From the NCBI RefSeq assembly GCF_947503415.1, contig NZ_CANNDS010000001.1, positions 682,001-746,000 of the forward strand: a DNA stretch of 64,000 bases. The letters are read 5' to 3'. This document shows, in pieces, positions 17,991-34,045 of this stretch; within the stretch, counting starts at the first letter, position 1; each line of letters begins with the position of its first letter. This DNA comes from an uncultured Tateyamaria sp. Lineage in GTDB: Bacteria; Pseudomonadota; Alphaproteobacteria; Rhodobacterales; Rhodobacteraceae. A program made the position numbers and the translations under genes. The notes beneath the pieces were generated by a model. That model saw only the letters and a program-made list of their open reading frames with translations. It made no database searches and was not told where the DNA came from.

Positions 17991-18032
17991 GTCGGCTTCC
18001 TCCCGAGGACCGATCACTGGCGAGGCGACCGG

Positions 18033-18416
18033 TCAGTCTTCCCTGCAAAACAGGTCGTAGACGACTTCCATGATTTGCCGGGGCCGGTCATCTGTCAAGC
18101 TGTAGTAGATCGCCTTGCCATCCCGCCGGGGTTTGACCAACCCCTCCAGCCGCAAACGGGACAGCTGCTGCGACACCGCCGCTTGCCGGGCGGACAGCAG
18201 GTCCTCAAGTTCGGTGACCGACTTCTCGCCCGACGCCAGATGGCACAGGATCATCAACCGCCCCTCGTGGCTGATCGCCTTGAGGAAGTTCGATGCCTCC
18301 TGGGCATTGCGCATCATCTTTTCCATGTCTTCGGCACACATATTCGCGTCGAACACAGGCAAACGGGATGCGGTATCGGTCGTTGGGTCAGGCTGGCTTG
18401 TCATATCAAGGGTCAT
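18033..18416 (-). CDS. soxR: ArsR-family sulfur-responsive repressor SoxR
   Basis: A 127-residue winged-helix repressor: helix-turn-helix in SVTELEDLLSARQAAVSQQLSRLRLEGLVKPRRDGKAIYYSL. Cysteines fall at about 27, 58 and 124. The Cys58-Cys124 spacing of 66 residues equals that of the dithiol pair reported for the persulfide sensors SqrR/BigR, so it probably forms a polysulfide bridge on sulfide stress and releases DNA. ATTC-N8-GAAT repeats, the operator type of that group, lie before soxX and the soxG-like gene, and a one-mismatch copy lies in the soxS-soxV gap. It follows soxS by 6 bp. A second ATG 12 bp downstream is an alternative start. Confidence 0.9.
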   Translation of the reverse strand: MTLDMTSQPDPTTDTASRLPVFDANMCAEDMEKMMRNAQEASNFLKAISHEGRLMILCHLASGEKSVTELEDLLSARQAAVSQQLSRLRLEGLVKPRRDGKAIYYSLTDDRPRQIMEVVYDLFCRED

Positions 18417-18422
18417 AGCTTT

Positions 18423-18791
18423 TTACCCGGTCTTGTCCAATGGGATGTCGGCGCGTTCAAACATCATTGTGAGCAGGCCCCAAAAGAAATCCTCGCCCGG
18501 ATAACCTTCGATCCGGCCAACTTCGGCACCGTCCTCGACCAGAATGAAGGTTGGCGTGAAGTGTACGCGCTGCACAAAGGTGACGTCCGGCGCCTCACCG
18601 CGAAGGTCATAACGCTGCAACGGGGCCGTCTTGCCTTCAGCTGTCTTGGGATAGATGTGGGCGATTTCCTCGTTCCACTTGGCGCACCAATAGCATCCAT
18701 CCTCCTCCGCCATCAGCAGATAAGTGTCCGCCCAAAGGTTGAACGGAAGCCACGTCAGGACCGTGACGGCAAGTATGCGCAGTGGCTTCAC
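18423..18791 (-). CDS. soxS: Periplasmic thioredoxin-like protein SoxS
   Basis: A 122-residue thioredoxin-fold protein with an N-terminal signal segment (to about residue 21) and the redox motif CYWC (GCYWCAKW), followed by the cis-proline region FTPTFILVEDG. SoxS keeps SoxYZ in an active reduced state in Paracoccus. It begins with GTG 18789-18791 preceded by GGAG. It heads the leftward soxS-soxR-soxT unit and is divergent from soxV; the shared gap holds a candidate SoxR site. Confidence 0.88.
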   Translation of the reverse strand: MKPLRILAVTVLTWLPFNLWADTYLLMAEEDGCYWCAKWNEEIAHIYPKTAEGKTAPLQRYDLRGEAPDVTFVQRVHFTPTFILVEDGAEVGRIEGYPGEDFFWGLLTMMFERADIPLDKTG

Positions 18792-18871
18792 AAGATCGCT
18801 CCGATTGACGCCATTTCATAATTCATCATAATCTAATTTTTGAATGTCTCAAGACAAAGGGCCGCCAAACC
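18792..18871. promoter_or_regulatory. Divergent soxS/soxV promoter region with candidate SoxR site
   Basis: An 80-bp AT-rich gap. AATC-N8-GAAT at 18830-18845 differs from the perfect ATTC-N8-GAAT sites elsewhere in the locus only by an inverted AT pair in the left half. Its position allows control of both soxS and soxV. The Paracoccus SoxR protein is known to act at the corresponding gap. Confidence 0.5.
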
Positions 18872-19612
18872 ATGTTTGATGTGACATATTTGGGCGCTTT
18901 GCTTGCAGGTCTGCTGTCTTTTCTGTCGCCCTGTATCCTGCCGATTGTGCCGTTTTACCTCAGCTATCTTGCCGGCGTCGGCATGAACCAGATCTCTGCA
19001 CAGGCCGACATGACGCCTCAGGTGCGCATGCGTGCCTTTCTGGCGGCCTGTTGCTTTGCGCTTGGGGTCATCACCGTCTTCATGGGGCTGGGCGCCACGG
19101 CCACGGCGTTCGGGCAGATGGTGCGCGACTATTTCGATATCCTGCGGTGGGTGGCCGCGGCCATCATCATTGCAATGGGCCTGCATTTCCTTGGCGTCTT
19201 GCGGATCGGGTTTTTATACCGTCAGCTCCGGGCAGATGCCGGGAACACGTCGAACGTGGGTCTGTTGGGCGCTTTTGTCATCGGGCTTGCCTTCGCCTTT
19301 GGCTGGACACCCTGCGTGGGGCCGGTGCTGGCCGCCATCCTGTTCACCGCCGCAGGACAGGAAACGGCTGGTCAGGGGGCCACCCTATTGTTCGTCTATG
19401 GGCTAGGCATGACCCTGCCCTTCATAGCAGCGGCGCTTTTCATCGGTCCGTTCATGCGGTTCATGGCGCAGTTTCGCCGCCACCTTGGACTTGTCGAAAA
19501 GATCATGGGCGCACTTCTGATCCTGTTCGGCGTGCTGATCGCCACAAATTCCATCAACTACATCGCGCAATGGATGCTGGAGCACGTCCCGTGGTTCAGC
19601 GCCATTGGCTAA
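18872..19612 (+). CDS. soxV: Thiol-electron transporter SoxV (CcdA/DsbD family)
   Basis: A 246-residue CcdA-type protein with about six membrane segments and the two functional cysteines in SFLSPCILPIVPFYLSYLAG and GWTPCVGPVLAAI. It moves reducing equivalents from cytoplasmic thioredoxin across the membrane to periplasmic SoxW and, through SoxS/W, to SoxYZ. soxW follows 15 bp downstream. The start ATG 18872 has a modest AAAGGG upstream. Confidence 0.93.
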   Translation: MFDVTYLGALLAGLLSFLSPCILPIVPFYLSYLAGVGMNQISAQADMTPQVRMRAFLAACCFALGVITVFMGLGATATAFGQMVRDYFDILRWVAAAIIIAMGLHFLGVLRIGFLYRQLRADAGNTSNVGLLGAFVIGLAFAFGWTPCVGPVLAAILFTAAGQETAGQGATLLFVYGLGMTLPFIAAALFIGPFMRFMAQFRRHLGLVEKIMGALLILFGVLIATNSINYIAQWMLEHVPWFSAIG

Positions 19613-19627
19613 ACCGGGAGACTTGCC

Positions 19628-20188
19628 ATGTTTCGCTTATTTGCCCTTTTGACCGCCCTGATTCTCGCCTTTCAGGTGAACGCCGCCGAGCTTGGCGATG
19701 ACGGCCTGCACAAGGCGCCGTGGATGCGCGATACGTTCAAGGATTTGACCGAAGATCTGGAAGAGGCCAATGCCGAAGGCAAGCGCCTGATGGTCATGGT
19801 CGAACAACGCGGCTGCATCTACTGCAAGAAGATGCACGAGGAAGTCTTTGTCGTGCCCGAGGTGGCGCAATATATCGAGGACAACTTCTTTGTCGTGCAG
19901 ATCAACATGTTTGGTGATGTTGACGTCACCGACTTCGACGGCACCACCCTGCCCGAAAAGGATATGGTCAAACGCTGGGGCGCGCTGTTTACCCCCAGCA
20001 TCTACTTTTTTCCCGAAGAGGTGGCGGACGATGTGATCGCAACACAGGCCGCTGTGGCAAACATGCCGGGCGCGTTCGGGCGCTGGACCACTTTCAACAT
20101 GCTGAACTGGGTTGTCGAGAAGGGCTATGACGGGGACGAGCCGTTCCAGAAATACCACGCGCGGAAGTTCGAAGAGCAGAACGGATAG
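19628..20188 (+). CDS. soxW: Periplasmic thioredoxin SoxW
   Basis: A 186-residue exported thioredoxin-like protein: signal peptide to about residue 20 (FQVNAAEL) and the redox site EQRGCIYCKKMHEEVF, followed by a thioredoxin fold with LFTPSIYFFPEE as the cis-proline loop. It receives electrons from SoxV. It is the last gene before the soxX promoter gap. Confidence 0.9.
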   Translation: MFRLFALLTALILAFQVNAAELGDDGLHKAPWMRDTFKDLTEDLEEANAEGKRLMVMVEQRGCIYCKKMHEEVFVVPEVAQYIEDNFFVVQINMFGDVDVTDFDGTTLPEKDMVKRWGALFTPSIYFFPEEVADDVIATQAAVANMPGAFGRWTTFNMLNWVVEKGYDGDEPFQKYHARKFEEQNG

Positions 20189-20252
20189 TCACCTTGCTGC
20201 AGGTGCGAGAAAAATCTTGCGTCTCATGCTGCAACTGCGAACAGATACAAAA

Positions 20253-20268
20253 ATTCATGTAGTTGAAT
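20253..20268. promoter_or_regulatory. Perfect ATTC-N8-GAAT SoxR operator candidate upstream of soxX
   Basis: ATTC-ATGTAGTT-GAAT is a perfect inverted repeat of the SqrR/BigR operator form. It abuts a plausible promoter: TTGATA (20269-20274), 17 bp, TGTACA (20292-20297), 44 bp before soxX. The placement next to the -35 box fits repression by SoxR in the absence of reduced sulfur. Confidence 0.65.
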
Positions 20269-20343
20269 TTGATATTGCTCAACCGTGAATGTGTACAGTA
20301 GTGTACCCCCAAGAACGGACGGGAATCGTCCAAGGGAGGGTGC

Positions 20344-20820
20344 ATGAAACACATAATTGGACTAGGTCTGGCCGCGACATTTGCAGCCACCATCGTTGGC
20401 GCGGAGGCTGTGAAGCCCACGCAGGTTGTTTTTGAGGATGGCGCGATTGCCGCTTCCCTCAGCGGGGCGGCTGGTGACGCGGAAAACGGTGCCATCCTGA
20501 TGAACAAGGGATCGGGCAACTGCATCGCCTGCCATTCGGTGGATGCCCTGTCGGACCTGCCCTTCCACGGCGAGGTTGGCCCGCCCCTTGATGGCGTTGC
20601 AGACCGTTGGAGCGAAGCGGAACTGCGCGGGATCGTGGCCGACGCAAAGATGATGTTCGACGGCACGGTGATGCCATCGTTCTACAAAACGACGGGTTTC
20701 ACCCGTCTTGGTGATGCCTACACCGGCAAGGCCCATGCTGACGGTGAGGTCCAACCCCTTTTGACAGCTCAGGACATCGAGGACGTTGTCGCGTTCCTTG
20801 TGACCCTGAAAGAAGAATGA
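20344..20820 (+). CDS. soxX: Sulfur oxidation c-type cytochrome SoxX
   Basis: A 158-residue monoheme cytochrome: signal peptide to about residue 20 and one heme motif CIACH (GNCIACHSVDAL), with a C-terminal methionine-bearing loop (GTVMPSFYKTTGF) as the likely distal ligand. SoxX pairs with SoxA to attach thiosulfate oxidatively to the SoxY cysteine. It opens the soxXYZA block and is preceded by GGGAGGG. Confidence 0.95.
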   Translation: MKHIIGLGLAATFAATIVGAEAVKPTQVVFEDGAIAASLSGAAGDAENGAILMNKGSGNCIACHSVDALSDLPFHGEVGPPLDGVADRWSEAELRGIVADAKMMFDGTVMPSFYKTTGFTRLGDAYTGKAHADGEVQPLLTAQDIEDVVAFLVTLKEE

Positions 20821-20842
20821 ACCGAGACAACTGGAGCGTTCC

Positions 20843-21265
20843 ATGGAACTGACACGGCGAAAACTGCTTGTAATTGGCTCTGGCGCGGTCGCGCTGTCGA
20901 GCCTGACCGGCCTACCGGCCTTTGCCAGCCTGACCGACGACGCAATTGCGGAACTGACGGGCGGCGCAGAGGTGGGCGAAGGTGCGGTGACGATCACGGC
21001 CCCCGAGATTGCCGAGAATGGCAACACCGTTCCCATCGAGGTGTCGGCCCCCGGCGCGGTGGCGATCACGCTTTACGCGGACGGCAACCCGGTGCCCAAT
21101 GTGGCCACCATCAGATTCGGCCCGCTCAGCGCATCGCGCAGCGCATCCACGCGCATCCGTCTGGCCACCACGCAGGACGTCATTGCCATCGCACAGATGG
21201 AAGACGGCTCGTTCCAGAAGGCATCGGCCAACGTGAAAGTGACCATCGGCGGCTGCGGCGGCTGA
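20843..21265 (+). CDS. soxY: Thiosulfate carrier protein SoxY
   Basis: A 140-residue protein with a twin-arginine signal (LTRRKLLVIGSGAVALSSL) and the defining C-terminal swinging arm GGCGG, whose cysteine carries the sulfur substrate through the cycle. SoxZ lacks a signal and is presumably co-exported with SoxY through Tat. It lies between soxX and soxZ. Confidence 0.97.
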   Translation: MELTRRKLLVIGSGAVALSSLTGLPAFASLTDDAIAELTGGAEVGEGAVTITAPEIAENGNTVPIEVSAPGAVAITLYADGNPVPNVATIRFGPLSASRSASTRIRLATTQDVIAIAQMEDGSFQKASANVKVTIGGCGG

Positions 21266-21327
21266 TCTTACAATCTGCCCACCCGCACACGGCGGATGTC
21301 GGGCACCAGATATTGGAGAGAGAGAAC

Positions 21328-21657
21328 ATGGCATCCGGAGTGAAACCCCGCGTAAAAGTCCCCAAAACGGCGGCTGCTGGCGACACGATCACGATCAAGA
21401 CCCTGATCAGCCACAAGATGGAAAGTGGCCAGCGCAAGGACGATGACGGCAACGTCATCCCCCGCTCGATCATCAACCGCTTCACAGCCGATTTCAACGG
21501 CCAGAACGTGATCGATGTCACGCTGGAACCCGCGATTTCGACCAACCCGTATTTCCAGTTCGAAGCCATCGTGCCGGAATCCGGCGAGTTCCAGTTCACC
21601 TGGTACGACGATGACGGTGACGTCTACGAAACAGCCAAGAAGATCGACGTCTCTTAA
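21328..21657 (+). CDS. soxZ: Thiosulfate carrier subunit SoxZ
   Basis: A 109-residue immunoglobulin-like protein, MASGVKPRVKVPKTAAAGDT to VYETAKKIDVS, the normal SoxZ length and start. There is no signal peptide. It forms the heterodimer with SoxY that presents the carrier arm to SoxXA, SoxB and SoxCD. The start ATG 21328 follows GGAGAGAG; a slightly earlier ATG at 21313 is within the leader. Confidence 0.96.
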   Translation: MASGVKPRVKVPKTAAAGDTITIKTLISHKMESGQRKDDDGNVIPRSIINRFTADFNGQNVIDVTLEPAISTNPYFQFEAIVPESGEFQFTWYDDDGDVYETAKKIDVS

Positions 21658-21688
21658 GAAGACGGGGTCTCGCCAGGGAGGGACACTA

Positions 21689-22522
21689 ATGAACTTGAAA
21701 CCATGGATAGCAGCCGCCGTCATAGGGATGGCCGGGGCCGCGTTCGCGCAAGATGACAGCACGCTGTCGATCGATGGCGAGGATTTCGTCACCGAAACAG
21801 CCGCGCCCGCGCATCTGGACAACCTCAGCACGATCTATTCGGGCTGGCGCTTCCGTACGCCTGAAACGCAGGCGCTGCAGATTGATGACTTCGACAACCC
21901 GGCCATGATCTTTGTCGACCAAGGCATTGACCTCTTCAACGCGGTCGACGGCACCGAGGGCAAGTCCTGCGCTTCGTGTCACACGGGCGGGCCAGAGGAA
22001 TTTGCAGGTCTGCACGCCCAGATGCCAAAGGTCGTTGATGGCAAGCTGGTCGTGATGGAAGATCTGATCAACACCCACCGCCAAGAGGTGATGGGCGCAG
22101 AGCCATGGAAATGGTCCGGGGCCGACATGCAGGCCATGGTCGCCCTGATCGGGCTGCAATCGCGCGGTATGCCGATGGACGTGGTGATTGACGGTGACGC
22201 CGCCCCGTTTTGGGAAAAAGGCAAAGAGATCTACTACACCCGCTACGGTCAGCTCGAACTGTCGTGCTCCAACTGTCACGAAGACAACTACGGCAACATG
22301 ATCCGCGCCGACCACCTCAGCCAGGGCCAGATCAACGGCTTTCCGACCTATCGTCTGAAACAGGCCAAGCTGATCTCGCGGCACAACCGGTTCCGTGGCT
22401 GTATCCGCGACACACGGGCCGAAACATTTGCCGAAGGGTCGGACGAGTTCAAGGCGCTTGAGCTTTATGTGGCAAGCCGCGCAAACGGGCTGGATATCGA
22501 AACACCTGCTGTTCGCCAGTAG
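21689..22522 (+). CDS. soxA: L-cysteine S-thiosulfotransferase SoxA (diheme)
   Basis: A 277-residue exported cytochrome with signal peptide MNLKPWIAAAVIGMAGAAFA, two heme motifs (SCASCHTGG and SCSNCHEDNYGN) and the catalytic cysteine in RFRGCIRDTRAE, where a cysteine persulfide ligates the active heme. Both CxxCH sites are intact, so this is the diheme form. With SoxX it conjugates thiosulfate to SoxY. The start ATG 21689 is preceded by GGGAGGG. A strong hairpin follows the stop, before soxB. Confidence 0.96.
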   Translation: MNLKPWIAAAVIGMAGAAFAQDDSTLSIDGEDFVTETAAPAHLDNLSTIYSGWRFRTPETQALQIDDFDNPAMIFVDQGIDLFNAVDGTEGKSCASCHTGGPEEFAGLHAQMPKVVDGKLVVMEDLINTHRQEVMGAEPWKWSGADMQAMVALIGLQSRGMPMDVVIDGDAAPFWEKGKEIYYTRYGQLELSCSNCHEDNYGNMIRADHLSQGQINGFPTYRLKQAKLISRHNRFRGCIRDTRAETFAEGSDEFKALELYVASRANGLDIETPAVRQ

Positions 22523-22531
22523 GCAAACAAA

Positions 22532-22562
22532 AAAGGGGCGCGCAGGCATGCTGCGCCCCTTT
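22532..22562 (+). terminator. Hairpin between soxA and soxB (terminator/processing element)
   Basis: AAAGGGGC and GCCCCTTT arms enclose an inner GCAG/CTGC stem and a 5-nt loop; the 3' arm ends in TTTCT. It sits in the 90-bp gap inside the sox operon and looks like a rho-independent terminator or mRNA end, implying a separate or attenuated expression of soxB onward. Confidence 0.6.
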
Positions 22563-22581
22563 CTGCACTAATTAAATTCAA

Positions 22582-22593
22582 ATATGCGCATAT
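22582..22593. promoter_or_regulatory. Palindrome before soxB (possible internal promoter/operator)
   Basis: ATATGCGCATAT is a perfect 12-bp palindrome in an AT-rich stretch just after the soxA hairpin and 20 bp before the soxB start. It may be part of an internal promoter that restores transcription of soxB-CDEF. Confidence 0.35.
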
Positions 22594-22612
22594 GTACTAA
22601 AGGACACGAACC

Positions 22613-24313
22613 ATGATCTCGCGGCGGGACTTTCTTCAGGTTGGTATGGCGGCCTCGGCGCTGATCGGCGCATCGGGGTTTGGCAACTGGGCGCGGCTGG
22701 CCGCCCAACAGGCGCTTACGCAGGACCAACTGCTGAACTTTGACACGTTCGGCAACGTATCGCTGATCCACATCACCGACATCCATGCGCAACTGAAACC
22801 AATCTATTTCCGCGAACCCTCGGTGAACATCGGCGTCGGCGGCAACAAAGGCGCAGTACCGCATGTGACCGGCGCTGACTTCCGCAAGCTCTATGGCATC
22901 GACGATGGCTCGCCCGCGCATTACGCGCTCAGCTCCGGCGACTTCTCCTCGCTTGCCCAAGGCTATGGCCGCGTCGGCGGGCTGGACCGGGTTGCCACCG
23001 TGATCAAGGCGATCCGCGCCGACCGCCCCGATGCGATCCTGCTGGATGGCGGCGACACGTGGCACGGATCCTACACCTGCCTCAAGACCCAAGGCCAGGA
23101 CATGGTCAACGTGATGAACGCGTTGAACCCTGACGCCATGACCTTCCATTGGGAGTTCACGCTGGGGTCCGACCGCGTGAACGAACTGGTGGAAAGCCTG
23201 CCATTCGCGGCCCTTGGCCAGAACATATTCGACGTCGAATGGGACGAACCGACAGACCTGTTCCCGCCCTACAAGATGTTCGAGCGCGGCGGCACCAAGG
23301 TGGCCGTGATCGGACAGGCGTTCCCCTACATGCCCATCGCCAACCCCGGCTGGATGTTCCCCGAATACGCCTTTGGCATCCGGGACGAGAACATGCAGGC
23401 CATGGTGGACGAGGTCCGCGCCGCTGGGGCCGAATGCGTTGTCGTACTCAGCCACAACGGCTTTGACGTCGACAAGAAAATGGCCACGGTCGTGTCGGGC
23501 ATCGACGTGATCCTGTCGGGCCACACCCATGACGCCCTGCCCGAACCCGTGGTGTCGGGCGAAACACTGATCTTCCCATCAGGCTCCAACGGCAAGTTTG
23601 TCACCCGCATTGACCTTGATATCCGCGATGGGCGCGTGCTGGGCTACAAATCCAAGCTGATCCCGATCTTTTCCGACGTGATCACGCCAGACGCCGACAT
23701 GACCGCCCTGATCGACGCCCAGCGCGCACCGTTTGAGGCCGAGTTGTCGGAAGTGATCGGTCAAACCGACAGCCTGCTCTACCGGCGCGGCAACTTCAAC
23801 GGCACGTGGGATGACCTGATCTGCGACGCCCTGCTCAGCGAGCGCGAGGCCGAGATCGCGCTCAGCCCCGGCGTGCGTTGGGGGCCATCGCTTATCCCCG
23901 GCCAGGACATCACCCGCGAGGATATCTTCAACGTCACCTCCATGACCTATGGCAAGGCGTATCGCACGGAAATGACCGGCGAATTCCTCAAGGTCGTGCT
24001 CGAAGACGTGGCCGATAACATCTTCAACCCGGACCCCTACTATCAACAGGGCGGCGACATGGTGCGCACGGGCGGGCTTGGCTACCACATCGACGTCAGC
24101 CAGCCGCAAGGCAGCCGCATCAGCAACATGACCCTGCTCAACACGGGCGAGGCGATTGATCCGGCGCGCAGCTACGTGGTCGCGGGCTGGGCTTCGGTCA
24201 ACGAAGACACCGAAGGCCCGCAAATCTGGGACGTGGTCGAAGATCACATCGCCAAGATGGGCACCGTCACCGTCAATCAGGACAACAACAGCGTCGTCGT
24301 CACCGGCGTTTAA
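22613..24313 (+). CDS. soxB: Thiosulfohydrolase SoxB
   Basis: A 566-residue periplasmic enzyme of the 5'-nucleotidase/metallophosphatase family. A twin-arginine signal (SRRDFLQVGMAASALIG) precedes the dinuclear-metal motifs HITDIHAQ, LDGGDTWHGSY, VVLSHNGFDVD and LSGHTHDALPEPV, which bind two manganese ions in characterised SoxB. The nucleotidase C-terminal domain follows. It hydrolyses the terminal sulfonate of SoxY-cysteine-S-thiosulfonate to sulfate. SoxC follows 18 bp downstream. Confidence 0.97.
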   Translation: MISRRDFLQVGMAASALIGASGFGNWARLAAQQALTQDQLLNFDTFGNVSLIHITDIHAQLKPIYFREPSVNIGVGGNKGAVPHVTGADFRKLYGIDDGSPAHYALSSGDFSSLAQGYGRVGGLDRVATVIKAIRADRPDAILLDGGDTWHGSYTCLKTQGQDMVNVMNALNPDAMTFHWEFTLGSDRVNELVESLPFAALGQNIFDVEWDEPTDLFPPYKMFERGGTKVAVIGQAFPYMPIANPGWMFPEYAFGIRDENMQAMVDEVRAAGAECVVVLSHNGFDVDKKMATVVSGIDVILSGHTHDALPEPVVSGETLIFPSGSNGKFVTRIDLDIRDGRVLGYKSKLIPIFSDVITPDADMTALIDAQRAPFEAELSEVIGQTDSLLYRRGNFNGTWDDLICDALLSEREAEIALSPGVRWGPSLIPGQDITREDIFNVTSMTYGKAYRTEMTGEFLKVVLEDVADNIFNPDPYYQQGGDMVRTGGLGYHIDVSQPQGSRISNMTLLNTGEAIDPARSYVVAGWASVNEDTEGPQIWDVVEDHIAKMGTVTVNQDNNSVVVTGV

Positions 24314-24331
24314 CCAAGGGACATCGAAACC

Positions 24332-25594
24332 ATGGATGACATGTTCAAACCATCCCGGCGGGCCTTCCTTCGCGGCTCTGCCGCCGTGGCCGCCGGATCT
24401 GTCGCGGGGGCGGCATCGGCCAGCGGACCCGACCCGCTGATCACCGAATTGCAGGACTGGGCCAGCTACACCGGCGTGGGCGTTGACGAAACACCCTATG
24501 GCATGCCCATCAGCTTCGAGAGCCACGTGGTGCGCCGCAATGTCGAGTGGCTGACCGCCTCGCCCATCTCGTCCATCAACTTCACCCCGATCCATGCGCT
24601 GGACGGCACGATCACGCCGCAAGGCTGCGCGTTCGAACGGCACCACTCGGGTGCGATCGAGCTGTCGAAGCCGGACTACCGTCTGATGATCAACGGCCTC
24701 GTCGATCAACCGTTGGTCTTTACCTATGACGACCTGATGCGCTTCCCGCGCGAAAACCACGTCTATTTCTGCGAATGCGCCGCCAATACCGGCATGGAAT
24801 GGGCAGGTGCACAGCTGAACGGGGTGCAGTTCACCCACGGCATGATCCACAATATGGAATATACCGGCGTGCCCCTGCGGACCCTGCTGAAAGAGGCGGG
24901 CGCGGATATCTCATCCGACAAATGGGTCTATGTCGAAGGCGCAGATGCGTCCTCGAACGGCAGGTCCATCCCGATGGAAAAGGCGCTCGATGACGTGCTG
25001 GTGGCGTTCAAGGCCAATGGTGAGGCGTTGCGCATGGAACATGGCTATCCCGTCCGGCTGGTCGTGCCGGGCTGGGAAGGCAACATGTGGGTCAAGTGGC
25101 TGCGCCGCATCGAAGTGACCGACATGGCTGTCGAAAGCCGCGAGGAAACCAGCAAGTACACCGACGTGCTGGAGGATGGCACGGCGCGCAAGTGGACGTG
25201 GGAGATGGACGCCAAATCCGTCATCACCTCGCCCAGCCCGCAGATGCCGATCACTCATGGCAAGGGGCCGCTGGTCGTCTCGGGCCTCGCGTGGTCCGGT
25301 CACGGCAAGATCACCCGCGTGGACGTGTCCAAGGATGGCGGCATCACATGGGAAACGGCCCGTCTCGGCAAGCAGGGAGACACCAAGGCGCTCACCCGCT
25401 TCTACCTCGATATGGACTGGGACGGCGCGCCAATGCTGCTGCAATCCCGCGCCATGGACGACACCGGATATGTGCAGCCCACCAAAGAGCAATTGCGCGA
25501 ACAGCGGGGCGAGAACTCCGTCTATCACAACAACTGTATCCAGACATGGTACGTGAATGCAGAAGGGATCGCAGAGAATGTCGAAGTCTCCTAA
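24332..25594 (+). CDS. soxC: Sulfane dehydrogenase molybdopterin subunit SoxC
   Basis: A 420-residue protein of the sulfite-oxidase family with a twin-arginine signal ([17 protein letters not shown]). The molybdenum-ligand cysteine lies in [14 protein letters not shown], with downstream motifs [13 protein letters not shown] and [21 protein letters not shown]; the dimerisation domain closes the protein. It pairs with the diheme cytochrome SoxD to oxidise the sulfane sulfur still bound to SoxY. Its stop lies within the start of soxD. Presence of soxCD means complete oxidation of thiosulfate without sulfur-globule deposition. Confidence 0.97.
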
Positions 25595-26876
25595 CTTCCT
25601 TATCCCCGCGCTTGGCGGTACGGCCCTTGTCCTTGGGGCGGCCTTTGCCCTGATGAACCGCGACTATGCGGCCGACAAGATCGACACGCTTGAAACCCGT
25701 GTGGAACAGGTGTCGGCACAAGCCACCAGCGCCACCGAAAAGGCCAGGGCCGAAGCCGCCCGCGCCGCTGAGCTGGAACAGCAAGTGGCCGAGATACAGG
25801 CCGTGGCGTCTGGCGGTCTGATCGCAGAACCTGCACCCGATGCCGATGGCCGCTACGGTCTGGGCCGCGCGGCCCTGCCCGAAGAGATCGCGGCATGGGA
25901 CGTGGACGTCCTGCCCGATGGTCGTGGCCTGCCCGAGGGCAGCGGCGATGTGTGGACCGGCGAAGAAGTCTTTGTCGACAATTGCGCCTCCTGCCACGGC
26001 GACTTTGCCGAAGGGGTCGATAATTGGCCCGTGCTTGCAGGCGGTTTCGATACCTTGGCCGACAAGGATCCGGTGAAGACCGTGGGCAGCTACTGGCCCT
26101 ATCTCTCGACCGTCTGGGACTACGTGCACCGCTCCATGCCCTTCGGCGGGGCAGGCACGCTCACCAATGATGAGACCTACGCCATTGTCGCCTACATCCT
26201 CTACTCCAACGACATGGTGGATGATGATTTCGTGCTCAGCCGCGAAACCTTCACAGACGTCGAAATGCACAACGCAGATGGCTTTGTCGTCGATGACCGG
26301 GCGCAGACAGAATATGCCGAATGGCGCACCGAACCCTGCATGGAAAACTGCAAGGACGAGGTCGAGATCACCATGCGCTCCGTCTTTCTGGTGGAAACAC
26401 CGCCCGAGGGGGGGTCGAACTCCATCATGAACCCCGCCAAGGTCGACGATCTGCCCTCCTTCACCGCGGACGGCCCCTCTTTCATCCCGGCGGCGGCACC
26501 CAAACCTATAGAGGCGCCTGCACCCGAGGCGACACAAACCGCCGCAACCGACGACGACGCGATGCTGAAACACGGGGAAAAGGTGTTCAAGAAATGCGCC
26601 GCCTGTCACGCCGTGGGGGACGGTGCCAAGAACAAGGTTGGACCGCAGCTGAACGGTGTCATGGGCCGGACCATGGGGTCGGTCGAAGGGTTCAAGTATT
26701 CCAACGGATTTGCCGAAGCGAACGCCGAGGGCAAGACCTGGACCCCCGAAGAAATGGCCGCCTTCCTGGCCAAGCCCAAAACCTACATGAAAGGCACCAA
26801 AATGGCCTTTGCCGGGCTGAAGAAGGACGAGGATCTGGCAGCGATCAACGCCTATCTGGCGAGCTTCGGGAACTGA
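25578..26876 (+). CDS. soxD: Sulfane dehydrogenase diheme cytochrome SoxD
   Basis: A 432-residue exported cytochrome. The N-terminus has a single hydrophobic helix (residues about 7-25) and then an Ala/Glu-rich coiled-coil-like segment (to about 75). Two c-type domains follow: CASCHGDF near residue 137 and [25 protein letters not shown] in the C-terminal mitochondrial-type domain. An acidic/proline-rich linker ([15 protein letters not shown]) joins them. It accepts electrons from SoxC. The start ATG 25578 overlaps soxC by 17 bp. Confidence 0.95.
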
Positions 26877-26881
26877 CGGCC

Positions 26882-27586
26882 ATGCGGTCCGTGTTCAAAT
26901 ACCTCGCGGTCGCATCGCTGCTCGGCCTGCCCATCGCGGGCCACGCCGACACCGGCGACGCAGAGGCGGGCGAAAAGGTGTTCCAGCAGTGCAAGGGCTG
27001 CCATCAGGTCGGCGCGGGGGCCAAGCACCGCAGCGGGCCGCACCTGAACGGCCTGTTCGGGCGCAAGGCCGCGAGCCTTGACGACTTCCGCTATTCCAAA
27101 AGTTTCCAGCGCGCAGGCGCAGGCGGGCTGGAATGGCACGCCGACACACTGGACGTGTTTCTGGAAAACCCGCGCGCCATGGCGAGCGGCACGCGGATGA
27201 GCTTTCGAGGCATCAAAAACGCCGATGATCGCGCAAACCTGATCGTCTACCTGCGCACCTTCTCAGACGATCCCGCAAACATCCCCGAGGCGGATCCAAC
27301 CGCCCAAGCGCTGGACCATGACCTCGACCCGGCCATTCTGGCGCTCAAAGGTGACCCGGAATACGGCGAGTACCTGAGCGGCGAATGCACCACCTGCCAT
27401 CAAGCCGCCGGTGGTGATGACGGCATCCCGTCGATCACGCTTTGGCCCGAGGATCAGTTCGTCGTGGCCATGCACGCCTACAAGACCAAGCAACGCAATC
27501 ACCCGGTCATGCAGATGATCGCCGGGCGGCTGGGCGATGACGAAATTGCGGCCCTCGCCGCGTATTTCAAAGACCTCGAAAACTGA
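26882..27586 (+). CDS. soxE: Diheme c-type cytochrome SoxE
   Basis: A 234-residue exported diheme cytochrome: signal peptide to about residue 22, CKGCHQVGAGAKHRSGPHLNGLFGR in the first domain and CTTCHQAAGGDDGIPSI in the second. It is the SoxE component that pairs with the flavoprotein SoxF; together they resemble the flavocytochrome c sulfide dehydrogenase (FccAB). soxF begins 24 bp downstream. Confidence 0.92.
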   Translation: MRSVFKYLAVASLLGLPIAGHADTGDAEAGEKVFQQCKGCHQVGAGAKHRSGPHLNGLFGRKAASLDDFRYSKSFQRAGAGGLEWHADTLDVFLENPRAMASGTRMSFRGIKNADDRANLIVYLRTFSDDPANIPEADPTAQALDHDLDPAILALKGDPEYGEYLSGECTTCHQAAGGDDGIPSITLWPEDQFVVAMHAYKTKQRNHPVMQMIAGRLGDDEIAALAAYFKDLEN

Positions 27587-27610
27587 GGCAACCCTAGGGA
27601 GGAGACTGAC

Positions 27611-28879
27611 ATGACACTGAACAGAAGGACGTTCCTTGGCGCATCTGCCGTGGCCGCCGCGACGCTCGCAGCGCCGATGGTACGGGCCCAAGGCAAACCG
27701 CGCGTCGTCGTGATCGGCGGCGGTGCAGGTGGGGCCACGGCCGCGCGCTACATCGCCAAGGACAGCAAGGGGGACGTTGATGTCACCCTGATCGAACCCA
27801 CGCGCACATACTATACCTGCTTCTTCTCGAACCTGTATCTGGGCGGCATCAAGGACATTGATGATCTGGGCCACAGCTATGGTGGTCTGGCCGCAGGCGG
27901 CGTGAACGTGGTGCATGACTGGGCCGTGGGCGTGGACCGCGATGCCAAGACCGTCACCCTCGCCGGGGGTGGGTCGCTGCCCTATGACAAGCTGATCCTG
28001 TCGCCCGGCATCGACTTTGTCGACGGCGCTGTAAGTGGCTGGGACCTGTCGGCCCAGAACGCAATGCCACATGCCTACAAGGGCGGGTCGCAAACCGAAC
28101 TGCTCAAGGCGCAGCTCAAGGCGATGCCCGAAGGCGGCACCTTCGCCATGGTGGCCCCGCCCAACCCCTATCGCTGCCCCCCAGGCCCCTACGAACGGGT
28201 GTCGATGGTCGCGCACTATCTCAAGGCCAACAATCCGACGGCCAAGATCATCGTCGCCGACCCCAAGCCGAAATTCTCGAAAATGGCACTGTTCCAGGAA
28301 GGCTGGAACAACCACTACGCGGGTATGGTGGATTGGATCGGTGAGGACTTTGGCGGTGGCGAAGTGTCCGTGGACCCCGCGACCATGACCGTGACCATCG
28401 ACGGCGAAGAGACCAAGGTGGATGTCTGCAACGTGATCCCCGCCATGAAAGCGGGCCGCATTGCCGAAATCGCTGGTGTGACCGATGGCAACTGGGCCCC
28501 TGTCAACGCCGCCGACATGTCAAGCAAGGCCGACCCGGATATCTACGTTCTGGGCGACGCCAGCCAGCAGGGCGATATGCCCAAATCCGGCTTCTCGGCC
28601 AACAGTCAGGCCAAGGTCTGCGCCAACGCCGTGCGCGGCGCGCTGACCGGGTCCAAGGTGTTCCCGGCCAAGTTCTCGAACACGTGCTGGTCGCTCATTG
28701 ACGCCAATGACGGGGTCAAGGTGGGCGCGACGTATGAGGCGACGGACGAAAAGATCGCCAAGGTCGATGGCTTCATCTCGCAGACCGGTGAAACATCGGA
28801 CGTGCGCAAAGCCACCTACGAGGAATCCGAAGGCTGGTACGCGGGCATCACCGCCGACATGTTCGGCGCGTCTGTCTGA
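27611..28879 (+). CDS. soxF: Sulfide-dehydrogenase-like flavoprotein SoxF
   Basis: A 422-residue flavoprotein with a twin-arginine signal (LNRRTFLGASAVAAATL), the FAD-binding fold VVVIGGGAGGATAARYI, a redox-active cysteine in TYYTCFFSN and the C-terminal domain of flavocytochrome c sulfide dehydrogenases (GKVFPAKFSNTCWSLI). In Paracoccus SoxF has sulfide dehydrogenase activity and raises Sox rates with SoxE as electron acceptor. An inverted-repeat hairpin follows the stop. Confidence 0.94.
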   Translation: MTLNRRTFLGASAVAAATLAAPMVRAQGKPRVVVIGGGAGGATAARYIAKDSKGDVDVTLIEPTRTYYTCFFSNLYLGGIKDIDDLGHSYGGLAAGGVNVVHDWAVGVDRDAKTVTLAGGGSLPYDKLILSPGIDFVDGAVSGWDLSAQNAMPHAYKGGSQTELLKAQLKAMPEGGTFAMVAPPNPYRCPPGPYERVSMVAHYLKANNPTAKIIVADPKPKFSKMALFQEGWNNHYAGMVDWIGEDFGGGEVSVDPATMTVTIDGEETKVDVCNVIPAMKAGRIAEIAGVTDGNWAPVNAADMSSKADPDIYVLGDASQQGDMPKSGFSANSQAKVCANAVRGALTGSKVFPAKFSNTCWSLIDANDGVKVGATYEATDEKIAKVDGFISQTGETSDVRKATYEESEGWYAGITADMFGASV

Positions 28880-28885
28880 TACCGC

Positions 28886-28917
28886 GGCGGGGCCTTGATA
28901 CTTCTCAAGGCCCCGCC
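28886..28917 (+). terminator. Strong hairpin after soxF
   Basis: A perfect 13-bp stem (GGCGGGGCCTTGA/TCAAGGCCCCGCC) with a 6-nt loop lies 7 bp after the soxF stop. There is no T-run, so it is more likely an mRNA 3'-end stabiliser or weak terminator before the DUF302-hemA pair. Confidence 0.55.
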
Positions 28918-28958
28918 CGCACATGCGTGCAATTCTGCGGCATGATCAGGAGGATAAG

Positions 28959-29387
28959 ATGAAACAGACCATTCTTGCCGTGACCCTCGGCCTCGCCGGT
29001 GCCGCCCACGCAGACAGCCCCATCGTGGTGCCCTATGACGGGTCATTCGATGATGCGACCTTTGCGGTCGAAAGCGCCATTGTCGGTCAGGGGCTGGTGA
29101 TCGACTATGTCAGCCATGTGGGCGACATGCTGAACCGGACGGGTGCGGATGTGGGCAGCGACACGCAGCTTTTCGACAATGCAGACATCTTCATCTTTTG
29201 CTCAGCCGTTGTGTCACGCGAGGTGATGGAAGCCGATCCGATGAACATCGCCCACTGCCCCTATGGCATCTTCGTCGCCGAACGGGACGGAGAGGTGATG
29301 GTGGGCTACCGCGACTACCCCGACGGCGAGATGCAGAAAGTACAGGCGCTGCTGGCCGACATCGTCGCCGACGCCGTGGAGAACTGA
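28959..29387 (+). CDS. DUF302-family periplasmic protein
   Basis: A 142-residue exported protein: signal peptide to about residue 18, then a single DUF302 domain ([33 protein letters not shown] ... [27 protein letters not shown]). The function of DUF302 is unknown; several members sit in sulfur or nitrogen redox loci. The start ATG 28959 has GGAGG upstream. Its stop overlaps the hemA start (TGATG), so the pair is translated together at the end of the sox operon. Confidence 0.85.
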
Positions 29388-30604
29388 TGAACTACACCGC
29401 CTTTTTCCGGTCCGAACTGGACTCCCTGCGCGACAGCGGCAACTACCGCGATTTTGCTGAACTCGAACGCCGTCGCGGCGCCTTCCCATCCGCCACGTGC
29501 CACAACGGCCCGGGTGAGGTGACGATCTGGTGCTCCAACGACTATTTGGGCATGGGCCAGCACCCCGTTGTGCTGGATGCCATGCACGAGGCGCTCGACC
29601 GGACGGGGGCGGGCGCCGGGGGCACGCGCAACATTTCGGGCACCACCCATGACCACGTGCTGCTCGAGGCGGAACTGGCCGACCTCCACGACAAAGAGGC
29701 GGCGCTGCTGTTCACGTCCGGCTACGTGTCGAACTGGGCAGCCCTTGGCACTTTGGGCGCACGGATACCCGGGCTGACAATCCTGTCCGATGCCCTCAAC
29801 CACGCGTCCATGATCGAAGGGATCCGGCATTCCAAAGCCGCGCGGGTGATCTGGAAGCACAACGATGTGGCCGATCTCGAGGCAAAGCTGGCCGCCCTGC
29901 CCCCTGATGCGCCCAAACTGATCGCCTTCGAATCCGTCTATTCCATGGACGGCGACATCGCCCCCATCGCCGAAATCTGTGATCTGGCAGATCGCTACAA
30001 CGCCATGACCTACCTGGACGAGGTGCACGCCGTTGGCCTTTACGGCCCGCATGGTGGGGGCATTGCGGAACGCGAAGGCCTTATGGACCGGCTGACCGTG
30101 ATCGAAGGCACACTTGGCAAGGCCTTTGGCGTGATGGGCGGGTATATCGCGGCCTCCGCCGAGATTTGCGACTTCGTCCGGTCCTTTGCCAGCGGGTTCA
30201 TCTTTACAACCGCCCTGCCGCCCGCCGTGGCCGCCGGTGCTGCGGCGTCAATCAGACACCTCAAAACCAGCACATCGGAACGCAGCGCACATCGAGCCCG
30301 CGTGGCTGACGTGCGTGCGCGCCTCGACGCGATCGGCCTGCCGCATATCGACAATCCCAGCCACATCATCCCGGTGATGGTCGGCGACCCGGTGAAGTGC
30401 AAGTTCATCTCGGACACGCTGCTCAAGGATCACGGGATCTATATCCAGCCCATCAACTACCCGACCGTCCCCGCGGGGACAGAGCGGTTGCGCATCACAC
30501 CGTCGCCCGTGCACAGCGATGCGGATGTGGAGCGATTGGCGGCGGCACTGGAAGACCTCTGGACCCAATGCCAATTGGCGCGACGCCCCATGGCGGCACA
30601 GTGA
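29387..30604 (+). CDS. hemA: 5-aminolevulinate synthase (second-copy type)
   Basis: A 405-residue PLP enzyme of the alpha-oxoamine synthase family: N-terminal [19 protein letters not shown], substrate segment [39 protein letters not shown] and the Schiff-base lysine in [14 protein letters not shown]. It condenses glycine and succinyl-CoA, the first step of heme synthesis in alphaproteobacteria. The TGATG overlap with the DUF302 gene places it in the sox operon, where it may raise heme supply for the four Sox cytochromes; a housekeeping copy is expected elsewhere. It converges on yeeE 4 bp away. Confidence 0.95.
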
Positions 30605-30608
30605 CGGG

Positions 30609-31676
30609 CTAGGCTGATCGCAGCAGTTTTCCCCGTGACGCCATCCAACGATGCGTACCCATGGCCCCCAGCCACATGCAGAACACGGCAACCCATGCGG
30701 TCAGCGCCATGATGGAGCCGCCCGCCATGCCAGCCCCCACGGCACAGCCACCCGCCAACATGCTGCCGAACCCCATAAGGATACCGCCGACCAGATACCG
30801 CTCCATCGGCGTATCTGCGTCAAAGCGCTGAATGCGCGCTTCGCCCTTGATCAGCGCCGTGACCAACGCGCCGACAAAAACGCCGGGAACAAGGCCCAGA
30901 CCAAAGCTGGGCGCGACCTGCGGGGCCGTGACAAGCGCCATCAGCGTGTCGGTCGACGGACCGGTAAAGGTGACGGACTGCACCGCGATCACCTCAAACG
31001 AGGCCTGCGCAATGGCATAGGTCGCGACCCACCCCAGAAAGACGGCCAGCCCTACAAAGGCCGCCGCCACAAGCTCGGAGACGGGCACACGCTCAAGACA
31101 GCCAAAGATCAGCGCCCCCACCAACGCCAACGCCGCGACACCGGTGATCACGGGCAAGCCAAGACCAAGGATCGCAGCCATGCTGCGCGTCGCGCCACCC
31201 GGCACGGTCCACAGCAACGCCATCCACTCGCGGATCGGCGACAGCGCGCCGCTCAGCGCGGCCTGGGCCACGATCGTGACGATCAGCCCCGTGACAATGG
31301 CCCGCAGATTGCCGGTGGCCGACAGAACAAGCAGGCGGCTCACACAACCGCGCGCAAGGATCATGCCCACACCGAACATCCCCCCACCGATGATCGCCCC
31401 GGACAGGCTGCCCGTCGCAGCCAACTGCCGCGCCCCGCTCAGATCAACAGCGCCCGTCATGACCGTGATTTGCACAGCCAGCAGGGCCGCGAAAAAGGCA
31501 ACAAGCCAGATCGCCAGACGCGGCCCCGCCTGCCCCTCCGCCACCTCCACGGCTGCCGCACGCAGGCAGAACCGCGCGTGCAACGCCGCGGCACCGAACA
31601 CCAATCCCACAAGCGCGCCCGCCGCGCACATTACTGCCGGATCGCCAAATCGGTCTATCAGGCTTTCCATGTCCAT
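30609..31676 (-). CDS. YeeE/YedE-family transporter (second copy)
   Basis: A 355-residue membrane protein of about ten hydrophobic segments with family cysteine motifs HARFCLRAAAVEV, ILARGCVSRLLVLSATGNLR and LAGGCAVGAGMAGGS. It is only distantly like the SoxT-like protein at 16935, so the locus carries two such transporters of different branches. The start at 31676 or the next methionine (31670) cannot be separated; a GGGAG motif fits either. It is the last gene after the soxG/soxH-like pair and probably moves thiosulfate, sulfite or another sulfur compound. Confidence 0.82.
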   Translation of the reverse strand: MDMESLIDRFGDPAVMCAAGALVGLVFGAAALHARFCLRAAAVEVAEGQAGPRLAIWLVAFFAALLAVQITVMTGAVDLSGARQLAATGSLSGAIIGGGMFGVGMILARGCVSRLLVLSATGNLRAIVTGLIVTIVAQAALSGALSPIREWMALLWTVPGGATRSMAAILGLGLPVITGVAALALVGALIFGCLERVPVSELVAAAFVGLAVFLGWVATYAIAQASFEVIAVQSVTFTGPSTDTLMALVTAPQVAPSFGLGLVPGVFVGALVTALIKGEARIQRFDADTPMERYLVGGILMGFGSMLAGGCAVGAGMAGGSIMALTAWVAVFCMWLGAMGTHRWMASRGKLLRSA

Positions 31677-31757
31677 ACGCTCCCGTCTCAGACCACGTAT
31701 GCACGCAGTGACAGACCGCAGACACCTACGCCTTGACCCATCGCAAATGGCCCCGGG

Positions 31758-32699
31758 TTATTCGAATTCCATCTGCTCGAACACGCGGCCCGCATTTCTG
31801 GTGGCCAACTCCTCGAACGTGTCGAGGTGGGCATAGGCACTTTGATCGACGTAATAGGCCTCTGCCAATTCGCCGCCCGCGTCCAGATGTGCGCCCACCG
31901 CCTCGCGCAGATGGACAAGATAGTCCCGCGTGTACCGGCGCACCTGATCCATGTTGGTCGGATGCCCGTGGCCCGGAATGACGTAAGTTGCGCCAAGCGG
32001 CTCGAAACAACACTCCCATGTTTCGATCCAGTCCAGCACAATCGTGTCCTCGAAAATGGGCAGCATCCGCTCGTGAAACGCCATATCGCCTGCGATCACC
32101 AGCCCCTGTTCCGGCAACCAGACCTGCGTGTCACCGGGTCCATGCGCAGGACCAAGATGCAGGACTTCCATCCGGAACGCGCCCATCTCGATCACTTTCC
32201 TGTCCTCAAAGGTCTCTGTCGGAGGGGCGACGAAGGTTCCTTCGGCCTTGTCCCGGTTGTAGCGTTCCATGTTCTCAAGGATGCGATTGCCGCGTTCTTC
32301 GATCTCGTGCGCGGCATCCACATGAGCAAGGATCGGCACCCCCTGCTCTGCCCAGTATGAATTGCCAAGCATCGCGTGGCCCTGTCCGTTTTCATCAATG
32401 ACCAGTTTCACGAGCTGGTCCGTGATCTCCTTGATCTCGTCATGCAGCGCCTTGGCCAGCAGATACGCAGCGCCGCCATTGATCACGACGACACCGTCGC
32501 CCGTGACAATGAAGCTCAGGTTGTTGTTGTGACCACTGTTTTCGTAGGTGGGCGGCGCCGTCGCACCAATGGCCGACCAGACATGCGGGATCACCTCCAC
32601 CGGTTTTGAATACAGCAGCGACGCCGGATACTGATCCGCTATGTCCTCACTGGCAAAGGCAGGTGCAGCGCACAGAACCAATGTACATGCCCAGCGCAT
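31758..32699 (-). CDS. soxH: Metallo-beta-lactamase-fold protein, SoxH-like, with degenerate metal motif
   Basis: A 313-residue exported protein: signal peptide MRWACTLVLCAAPAFA, then an MBL fold (PPTYENSGHNNNLSFIVTGDGVVVINGG). The zinc motif HxHxDH is replaced by ENGQGH (IDENGQGHAMLGN), keeping only the last histidine, while the later LGPAHGPGD and IPGHGHPT motifs persist. Size and place match SoxH of Paracoccus, a predicted periplasmic hydrolase of unknown role. The start is ATG 32697-32699, overlapping the soxG-like stop (TGATG); an upstream GTG is less likely. It may bind fewer or different metals or act as a binding protein. Confidence 0.78.
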   Translation of the reverse strand: MRWACTLVLCAAPAFASEDIADQYPASLLYSKPVEVIPHVWSAIGATAPPTYENSGHNNNLSFIVTGDGVVVINGGAAYLLAKALHDEIKEITDQLVKLVIDENGQGHAMLGNSYWAEQGVPILAHVDAAHEIEERGNRILENMERYNRDKAEGTFVAPPTETFEDRKVIEMGAFRMEVLHLGPAHGPGDTQVWLPEQGLVIAGDMAFHERMLPIFEDTIVLDWIETWECCFEPLGATYVIPGHGHPTNMDQVRRYTRDYLVHLREAVGAHLDAGGELAEAYYVDQSAYAHLDTFEELATRNAGRVFEQMEFE

Positions 32700-33616
32700 C
32701 ACGCGGCACCCGGCAGGAACACATATCCCTCCGCATCACGATCCACACGACCCATGCCACCTTCAGGCAGATGGAAGCCGACAATCTGCATCTGCTCGGA
32801 CATGATCCGGTCAAACAGCACAGCGCGCGTGGCGGCCGCCAGATCACCATTCTGGTCCGCCCCGCTGATCCAATCGGGCTTGCGGAAGGCCACGTGGTGA
32901 TTGCCAATGGCATCGCCCAGAACCAGCGCACTGTCCGACCCGTTGCGAAGCTCGAAACTCATGTGCCCCGGCGTATGACCGGGCGAAGAGACGGCGGCAA
33001 TGCCGGGCAAAATCTCTTGCCCGTCCTCAAAGAACACAACGCTGTCCTCGATCACTTCCATCCGCCGCTTGGCACCGACCGCAAATGCGGCACGGGCATC
33101 GCCAATGGTGTTTACCGTGTCCGGATCCCACCAGTAGTCCCACTCTGCACGGCCCATCCTGTAGGTGGCATTGTAAAACAGCGGATCGTCAAATTCGTCG
33201 ATCAGCCCCCAGATGTGATCCGGATGGGCATGGGTGAATACCACGTCGGTGATGTCTTCCGGCGCCAGCTCCACCGCGTTCAAACTCTCCAGAACCGTGC
33301 CCGCGGTTGGCATGAAGTCCGGACCCGACCCGGCATCGAACAGGACGGTGCGTTCACCATCCCGGTACAGCGCCAGATTGCATTCCGGTGTCAAACGCTC
33401 GTGGGAAATACCGAAGTCTGCCAAAACGCGCTTCAGCCCATCCTGAGGCATCGGCTCAAAGATGAAATCTCCGGGAAGTATCAGGTTCCCGTCACTCACC
33501 GTCGTCAATGTCGCCTGCCCGACGCTCGCGCTGGTCACTTTGGGGAAAACGGACAAGGATGCTGCCGCAGCGGCACCGCCTTGCAAGAGGAGCGATCGTC
33601 TATTCAGCTTCACCAT
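32699..33616 (-). CDS. soxG: Metallo-beta-lactamase-fold hydrolase, SoxG-like
   Basis: A 305-residue MBL-fold protein with a twin-arginine signal (LNRRSLLLQGGAAAAAS) and an intact metal site: THAHPDHIWG, PGHTPGHMSF and LGDAIGNHH. It heads a leftward unit with the soxH-like gene and a YeeE transporter. The start ATG 33614-33616 has GAGGTGA at the right distance. A perfect ATTC-N8-GAAT repeat sits 11 bp upstream, so it probably belongs to the SoxR regulon. Size and place fit SoxG of Paracoccus; the substrate is unknown. Confidence 0.8.
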   Translation of the reverse strand: MVKLNRRSLLLQGGAAAAASLSVFPKVTSASVGQATLTTVSDGNLILPGDFIFEPMPQDGLKRVLADFGISHERLTPECNLALYRDGERTVLFDAGSGPDFMPTAGTVLESLNAVELAPEDITDVVFTHAHPDHIWGLIDEFDDPLFYNATYRMGRAEWDYWWDPDTVNTIGDARAAFAVGAKRRMEVIEDSVVFFEDGQEILPGIAAVSSPGHTPGHMSFELRNGSDSALVLGDAIGNHHVAFRKPDWISGADQNGDLAAATRAVLFDRIMSEQMQIVGFHLPEGGMGRVDRDAEGYVFLPGAA

Positions 33617-33626
33617 GTCACCTCGC

Positions 33627-33642
33627 ATTCTTTAATATGAAT
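33627..33642. promoter_or_regulatory. Perfect ATTC-N8-GAAT SoxR operator candidate upstream of soxG-like gene
   Basis: ATTC-TTTAATAT-GAAT has the same geometry as the site before soxX. It lies 11 bp from the start codon of the leftward soxG-like gene, close enough to cover the promoter or transcript start. It links this reverse operon to the forward sox genes. Confidence 0.6.
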
Positions 33643-33968: not shown

Positions 33969-34045
33969 TGGCGATCCCTGAAGGACTCGAACCCTCAACC
34001 TGCTGATTAGAAGTCAGCTGCTCTATCCAGTTGAGCTAAGGGACC
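33969..34045 (-). tRNA. tRNA-Arg (anticodon TCT)
   Basis: A 77-nt cloverleaf on the reverse strand with a GGTCCCT/AGGGATC acceptor stem (one G-T pair), D arm TAGCTCAACTGGATAGAGC, anticodon loop CTTCTAA with anticodon TCT at 34009-34011, T arm GAGGGTTCGAGTCCTTC and an encoded CCA end. It reads AGA codons, rare in this high-GC genome. Confidence 0.96.

Follow-up and report, generated by a model that had tools for sequence, protein, structure and literature searches.

A stretch of 64,000 nucleotides from an uncultured Tateyamaria sp. (contig NZ_CANNDS010000001.1, positions 682,001 to 746,000; hereafter the window) carries a complete sox cluster, in which soxT1-soxR-soxS on the minus strand precede soxVWXYZABCDEF and the genes of a DUF302 protein and a 5-aminolevulinate synthase-like protein on the plus strand, with soxT2 (yeeE)-soxH-soxG facing them on the minus strand (Table 1). 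Our main finding is that the regulator SoxR very probably controls the soxG-soxH unit through a palindromic ATTC-N8-GAAT site. A preliminary description of this DNA had proposed that one such operator ties the facing unit to the sox genes, and comparative footprinting strongly supports this. The perfect repeats reported there before soxX and soxG and the one-mismatch copy in the soxS-soxV gap were all recovered (candidate operators 2, 4 and 1 of Table 1). The regulon of three sites built on them was too small, since the conserved site before soxB (22576-22591) had been missed; the sequences best support a SoxR regulon with four or more sites, and soxB is probably part of it.

The evidence for soxG comes from two sets of genomes. 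A SoxG search of 149 genomes of the family gave 49 best loci with 49 genus labels, our own genome included. In 31 of these genomes, each of a different genus, a perfect site immediately precedes the start of soxG, and no two of the 31 share a spacer. The 3 loci with soxG immediately behind soxF in the same orientation showed no perfect site. The second set consisted of the best 80 of 551 relatives, with at least 7 genomes in common with the first set; a perfect site stands at soxG in 55 of these loci, and the count is 64 when one mismatch is allowed. Sorted by arrangement, perfect sites were seen in 38 of 48 soxGH pairs, in 10 of 14 loci with sox genes nearby and soxH not adjacent, in 7 of 10 loci whose fetched flank showed no sox genes (the contig being short in some cases), and in none of the 8 soxFG arrangements. 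In five genomes (G138, G005, G038, G044, and G031) soxG lies on another contig than the sox cluster and has kept the perfect site (loci L026, L029, L030, L032, and L037). The neighbours of the relocated gene in four of these loci, all except L032, include fructose-bisphosphatase, ribulose-phosphate epimerase, a redoxin, HAD hydrolases or an FAD-dependent oxidoreductase. Three more genomes without sox neighbours at soxG (G125, G007, and G027) have no perfect site there.

To extend the comparison to whole clusters, the window and 38 fetched clusters were scanned, and a site with at most one mismatch was counted up to 180 bases upstream of each gene. Such a site precedes soxX in 35 of 38 clusters (perfect in 31), soxB in 30 of 38 (perfect in 14), soxG in 19 of 24 (perfect in 15) and soxV in 24 of 39 (perfect in 1). 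The soxB count takes in L157 at -128 and L170 at +3. For twelve control genes of the same clusters (soxR, soxW, soxY, soxZ, soxA, soxC, soxD, soxE, soxF, soxH, DUF302, and the 5-aminolevulinate synthase-like gene) the count was 16 of 387. The controls do not take in soxS, which shares its gap with soxV, nor soxT1 (0 of 38) and soxT2 (3 of 35), whose weak cross-matches had been counted as present but not scanned. As a further control, perfect matches within 130 bases were counted for 36 palindromic half-sites and for the 19 spacers from 2 to 20. Only the ATTC half-site is conserved (soxX 30 of 38, soxB 14 of 38, and soxG 15 of 24; at most 1 each for the others) and only the spacer of 8 (at most 4 loci for the others). 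Outside the family, where seven clusters were fetched, a perfect site precedes soxX in 2 of the 4 loci with a soxX match. In 2 of 37 clusters (L148 and L160) soxC is immediately preceded by a perfect site, and L046 (G073:C1:637764) has a second perfect site, ATTCAACATGTTGAAT, 249 bases before soxX and 158 before the soxX site, apparently inside soxW.

The presumed binder is encoded in the cluster. The preliminary description had taken SoxR for a persulfide sensor of the SqrR/BigR type with Cys58 and Cys124 spaced by 66 residues, and the homology supports this assignment. A phmmer search of the PDB matched SoxR to 6o8k at 2.3e-38 and to 3pqj (BigR) at 3e-20, and HTH_5 scored above its cut-off; it is thus an ArsR-type winged helix protein closest to SqrR/BigR. 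We take the entries 6o8k-6o8o, which the match listing names only as ArsR family, to be SqrR of R. capsulatus. The NCBIfam equivalog cut-off for BigR was not reached (99.2 of 155 bits), and SoxR is therefore not BigR itself. The 66-residue spacing was correct; a third cysteine, Cys27, is also present. In a MAFFT alignment of 39 SoxR proteins Cys58 is found in 39, Cys124 in 36 and Cys27 in 15. The gene lies beside soxS and soxV, with sites at soxV (one mismatch) and soxX, as in a regulon of the sox cluster.

One objection is that the soxX and soxG palindromes are copies of a short motif that arose by chance, and the regulon an artefact of looking in one place. The genome-wide scan that the preliminary description had called for does not speak for a regulon by itself: the 4.87 Mb of our own genome contain 27 perfect copies, close to the random density that was named there as refuting the idea, and 19 of the 27 lie inside mechanically found open reading frames (ORFs) that pass a codon-composition filter, some of which may be spurious. 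Copies with at most one mismatch are fewer in the window than expected (12 found against 21.65), and we therefore rejected density as proof of a regulon, even if two perfect copies lie in 18033-33642 against 0.09 expected from the genome-wide density. A reversed-pattern control (27 against 3) was rejected as biased, because the reversed pattern contains stop triplets. A third perfect copy in the window, at 35318-35333 and likewise missed in the preliminary description, lies near a divergent adenylate cyclase-like ORF (read off its translation); in 10 relatives the 200 bases preceding the adjoining ETC-subunit-like gene contain no copy with at most one mismatch (0 of 10; the other neighbour gene was outside the comparison). 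This copy is probably due to chance and was rejected as a further member of the regulon. Proteins encoded beside 7 of the 24 perfect sites outside the window (L001, L003, L005, L012, L014, L098, and L104) matched DnaA, FG-GAP repeats, di-haem cytochrome c peroxidase, zinc alcohol dehydrogenase, molybdenum hydroxylase parts, a lectin and an abortive-infection protein, and two had no match; no sulfur gene was seen beside these 7, and the other perfect sites of the genome were set aside as distant targets. With one mismatch allowed, the fuller motif ATTCA-N2-TA-N2-TGAAT occurs at four places, of which only the soxX one is in the sox region. Since the copy number is close to random, density cannot decide the matter, and conservation does. 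At soxX, soxB, and soxG the site is conserved in its position across dozens of genera, its spacers differ, and the negative controls came out clean. On these comparisons this is enough to refute chance for the three sites, while chance stands for the copy at 35318; as an account of the sites at soxX and soxG we consider it exceedingly improbable.

The sites could also be true operators whose main binder at soxG and soxB is another ArsR-type or an unrelated regulator, an explanation that we hold to be improbable. A second SoxR/BigR-like gene at E<=1e-20 was found in 18 of 29 relatives searched, among them all five genomes with a relocated soxG and its site, whereas our own genome has a single SqrR-type regulator at this threshold. 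The same motif moreover stands at the promoters beside soxR, and the residues of the presumed recognition helix are nearly invariant in 38 of the 39 aligned SoxR proteins.

Several results weigh against control by SoxR as proposed here, besides the unremarkable number of copies in the genome and the low count in the window. Of the 18 soxG loci without a perfect site in the 49 genomes, 3 are explained by the soxFG arrangement and the other 15 are unexplained. Related genomes are not fully independent samples. The five genomes with a relocated soxG have their best SoxR match within the sox cluster, yet all five hold a second SoxR-like gene, which could act at the relocated soxG. The site of the soxS-soxV gap is perfect in 1 of 39 clusters, which leaves the perfect-match control silent for soxV; its near-matches vary in mismatch type and register, and for these reasons it is, on the sequence comparison, the least certain of the four. 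A strict promoter scan found 6 matches against 5.1 expected, that is no excess, and the putative soxX and soxG promoter pairs were not among the 6. Finally, PMC9774250 reports that YgaV, a related regulator, also binds the katG region, which lacks ATTC-N8-GAAT.

The soxA-soxB gap combines the site with a hairpin. The segment 22518-22570 folds with -24.6 kcal/mol (z -3.5). Of the 38 loci, 31 have a hairpin in the 160 bases preceding soxB, and in 24 the nine bases after the hairpin contain four or more T; the 160-base stretch includes the end of soxA, and several of the 31 hairpins lie there, without a T-run. A site of the form ATTC-N8-G[AC]AT precedes soxB in 29 of 38 loci. The hairpin-to-site distance is 16.8 +/- 1.5 bp in 23 of these 29 loci, the remaining 6 lacking a hairpin by the strict rule and being left out, and the distance from site to start codon varies as 44.7 +/- 10.6 bases. 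The nearly fixed distance between hairpin and site suggests that the two parts work together. We propose, as a tentative and rather doubtful possibility, that the gap is a composite terminator-operator element, a working SoxR switch that would gate soxBCDEF apart from soxXYZA. Here SoxR might be a roadblock that stops transcription coming through from the soxX promoter, or it might cover the -10 box of an internal promoter, with the -35 box placed in the hairpin arm. If this is true, one sulfur sensor would set whether the pathway is on or off and also how much sulfur carrier is made relative to the hydrolase and dehydrogenase.

It may also be that soxG is co-regulated as proposed and that the soxB element is no SoxR switch, the hairpin serving in mRNA processing or stabilisation and the palindrome being part of a constitutive internal promoter. 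We think this unlikely, if less so than another binder at the sites. In its favour, 15 of the 30 soxB sites carry a GCAT variant half-site, that of the window included, one further site of the 30 (L170 at +3) is probably chance, the T-run of the window's own hairpin is weak and the terminator scan did not call it as a plus-strand terminator, and some loci without the site (L144, L167, and L170) also have a hairpin with T. The element is also scarce in other families, where, out of 18 loci, 1 has a perfect soxB site and 4 have a copy within one mismatch, including one at +3, so that we rejected it as a feature of all Alphaproteobacteria; it is absent as well from L174, a locus of the same family outside the cluster set. 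Against it stand ATTC-N8-G[AC]AT in 29 of 38 soxB loci, the spacer fixed at 8, and a perfect GAAT half in 14 of 38.

Promoter-like boxes accompany the other three sites. Operator 1 overlaps the promoter-like pairs of both soxV and soxS, and in the window its deviating half-site is the one shared with the -10 box, an overlap that may explain the one-mismatch form at soxV. In relatives the soxX site is closely followed by a conserved TTGCG box and, 18 bases further, by a TAcGGT-like box. Alignment of the 31 soxG sites shows a recurring CTTGCC-like -35 and a CAT-ATT -10 that overlap the left half-site. The first possible ATG of soxG is itself overlapped by the site at 33627, and the second in-frame ATG, at 33616, is the likelier start. 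A tRNA gene lies upstream of soxG on the minus strand (33972-34045).

The preliminary description had also treated soxG-soxH-yeeE as one operon. In the window the genes soxG and soxH overlap by 4 bases and the gap from soxH to yeeE is 81 bases, in which the terminator scan listed no terminator-like site; given this short gap, soxT2 may share the soxG promoter. Among the 24 clusters with soxG soxT2 stands behind soxH on the same strand in only 5 (the window, L135, L136, L137, and L142), has the opposite orientation in 9 and was not found in the stretch in 10. As the orientation of soxT2 varies, the predicted soxG-soxH-yeeE operon is lineage-specific, and soxG with its own operator appears as the constant part. 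The motif HxHxDH is retained in 24 of 24 SoxG and replaced by ENGQGHA in 17 of 17 SoxH compared. At the other end of the cluster soxT1 adjoins soxR in 37 of 39 clusters, the window included, and SoxT1 is likely the signal feeder of SoxR. The SoxS protein had no match in Pfam or NCBIfam. The DUF302 call rests on a Pfam match of 5e-06, over the family cut-off, and the 5-aminolevulinate synthase-like gene was named from its translation and from the gene layout in PMC11034169.

Table 1. Genes, candidate operators, and promoter-like elements of the sox region, in window coordinates.
Feature	Position	Strand	Basis and remarks
soxT1, YeeE/YedE-type sulfur-compound membrane protein	16935..18017	-	Pfam Sulf_transp 5.4e-60; Cys41, Cys115, Cys318
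soxR, ArsR-family dithiol repressor	18033..18416	-	127 amino acids; Cys27, Cys58, Cys124; best PDB match 6o8k/6o8l, 2e-38
soxS	18423..18791	-	Named from position, between soxR and soxV in 39 of 39 clusters with a match
Promoter-like pair of soxV, TTGACG-16-CATAAT	18805..18832	+	Consensus; CATAAT-like box recurs in relatives
Promoter-like pair towards soxS, TTGAGA-16-TATGAT	18825..18852	-	Consensus match only
Candidate SoxR operator 1, soxS-soxV gap	18830..18845		AATCTAATTTTTGAAT; AATC-N8-GAAT, one mismatch
soxV	18872..19612	+	DsbD_TM 5.6e-17 and cluster order
soxW	19628..20188	+	Thioredoxin_2 5e-15 and cluster order
Candidate SoxR operator 2, before soxX	20253..20268		ATTCATGTAGTTGAAT; perfect
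Putative soxX promoter, TTGCTC-18-TAGTGT	20275..20304	+	Consensus reading; just downstream of operator 2
soxX, soxY, soxZ, soxA	20344..22522	+	ORFs, names read off translations; cluster order
Hairpin after soxA	22533..22561	+	Own T-run weak (TTTCT)
Candidate SoxR operator 3, before soxB	22576..22591		ATTCAAATATGCGCAT; one mismatch; 37 bases before soxB
soxB, soxC, soxD, soxE, soxF	22613..28879	+	Names read off translations; cluster order
DUF302 protein and 5-aminolevulinate synthase-like genes	28956..30604	+	Tail of main sox strand; cluster order
soxT2 (yeeE)	30609..31676	-	Pfam Sulf_transp 5e-49; behind soxH on the same strand in the window
soxH, metallo-beta-lactamase-fold protein without HxHxDH motif	31758..32702	-	Profile matches and translation
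soxG, metallo-beta-lactamase-fold hydrolase	32699..33628	-	HAHPDH; RR signal-like start (read off translation)
Candidate SoxR operator 4, before soxG	33627..33642		ATTCATATTAAAGAAT on the minus strand; perfect
Putative soxG promoter, TTGCAT-17-CATATT	33640..33668	-	Consensus reading; -10 overlaps operator 4

Several known systems are close to this one. SoxR of Pseudaminobacter salicylatoxidans KCT001 and of Paracoccus reportedly binds in the soxS-soxV and soxW-soxX gaps. It is likewise an ArsR-family sox repressor, its gene belongs to a soxSRT arrangement (PMC11582611), and the regions it binds lie in promoter-operator segments of the sox cluster (PMC10451225). The soxG and soxB sites of the window set it apart: no SoxR site at either gene was found in the excerpts of the literature searched, and the SoxR papers of 2005-2007, which lie outside that literature, may already describe them. 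In Hyphomicrobium denitrificans, the two cysteines of SoxR, Cys50 and Cys116, are likewise spaced by 66 residues; they form a tri- to pentasulfide bridge, and polysulfide abolishes DNA binding (PMC10451225). That organism differs in its truncated Sox system, its sHdr targets and the partner sHdrR, and neither "ATTC" nor "soxG" occurs in the main text of the paper. For SqrR of Rhodobacter capsulatus, the nearest relative of solved structure if our identification holds, ATTC-N8-GAAT is the deduced recognition site (PMC9774250), whereas its targets are sulfide-dependent photosynthesis genes and not a sox cluster (PMC10451225). The SoxT1A/SoxT1B and SoxT2 systems of Paracoccus denitrificans, Cereibacter, and Roseovarius share the placement of soxT1 by soxR and of another soxT at the opposite end of the sox genes (PMC11582611); soxT2 of the window differs in standing behind soxG-soxH, where the soxG operator might control it as well. 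From Sulfitobacter, clusters with soxG, soxH, DUF302, 5-aminolevulinate synthase, and YeeE genes have been described in an account that leaves the last three open (PMC11034169).

The sites, their conservation, their placement against promoter-like boxes and the kinship of the regulator are seen in the sequences. Binding and the release through a sulfur bridge are carried over to the window from the SoxR and SqrR literature on other species, and repression and the promoters themselves are likewise inferred. In the mechanism that we propose for this roseobacter-type bacterium, dimeric SoxR would bind the 16-bp ATTC-N8-GAAT palindrome, in its fuller form at soxX, at four places: the divergent soxS and soxV promoters, the region before soxX, the soxA-soxB gap and the region before soxG-soxH(-soxT2). 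When no sulfur substrate is present, SoxR would cover the -10 at soxV and soxG and sit just upstream of the -35 of soxX. With thiosulfate or sulfide, sulfane sulfur, probably delivered via SoxT1, would bridge Cys58 and Cys124, and the bridged SoxR would release the DNA, turning all units on together.

The role of SoxG and SoxH is, to our knowledge, still open. That the operator is shared, and persists even at soxG genes relocated outside the sox cluster, is an argument for SoxG acting in sulfur oxidation. Judging from the soxB element, a single sensor of sulfane sulfur may govern the whole Sox pathway on two levels, and the conserved motif lets candidate SoxR targets be read from roseobacter genomes. 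The known SoxR control circuit thus looks larger than so far described.

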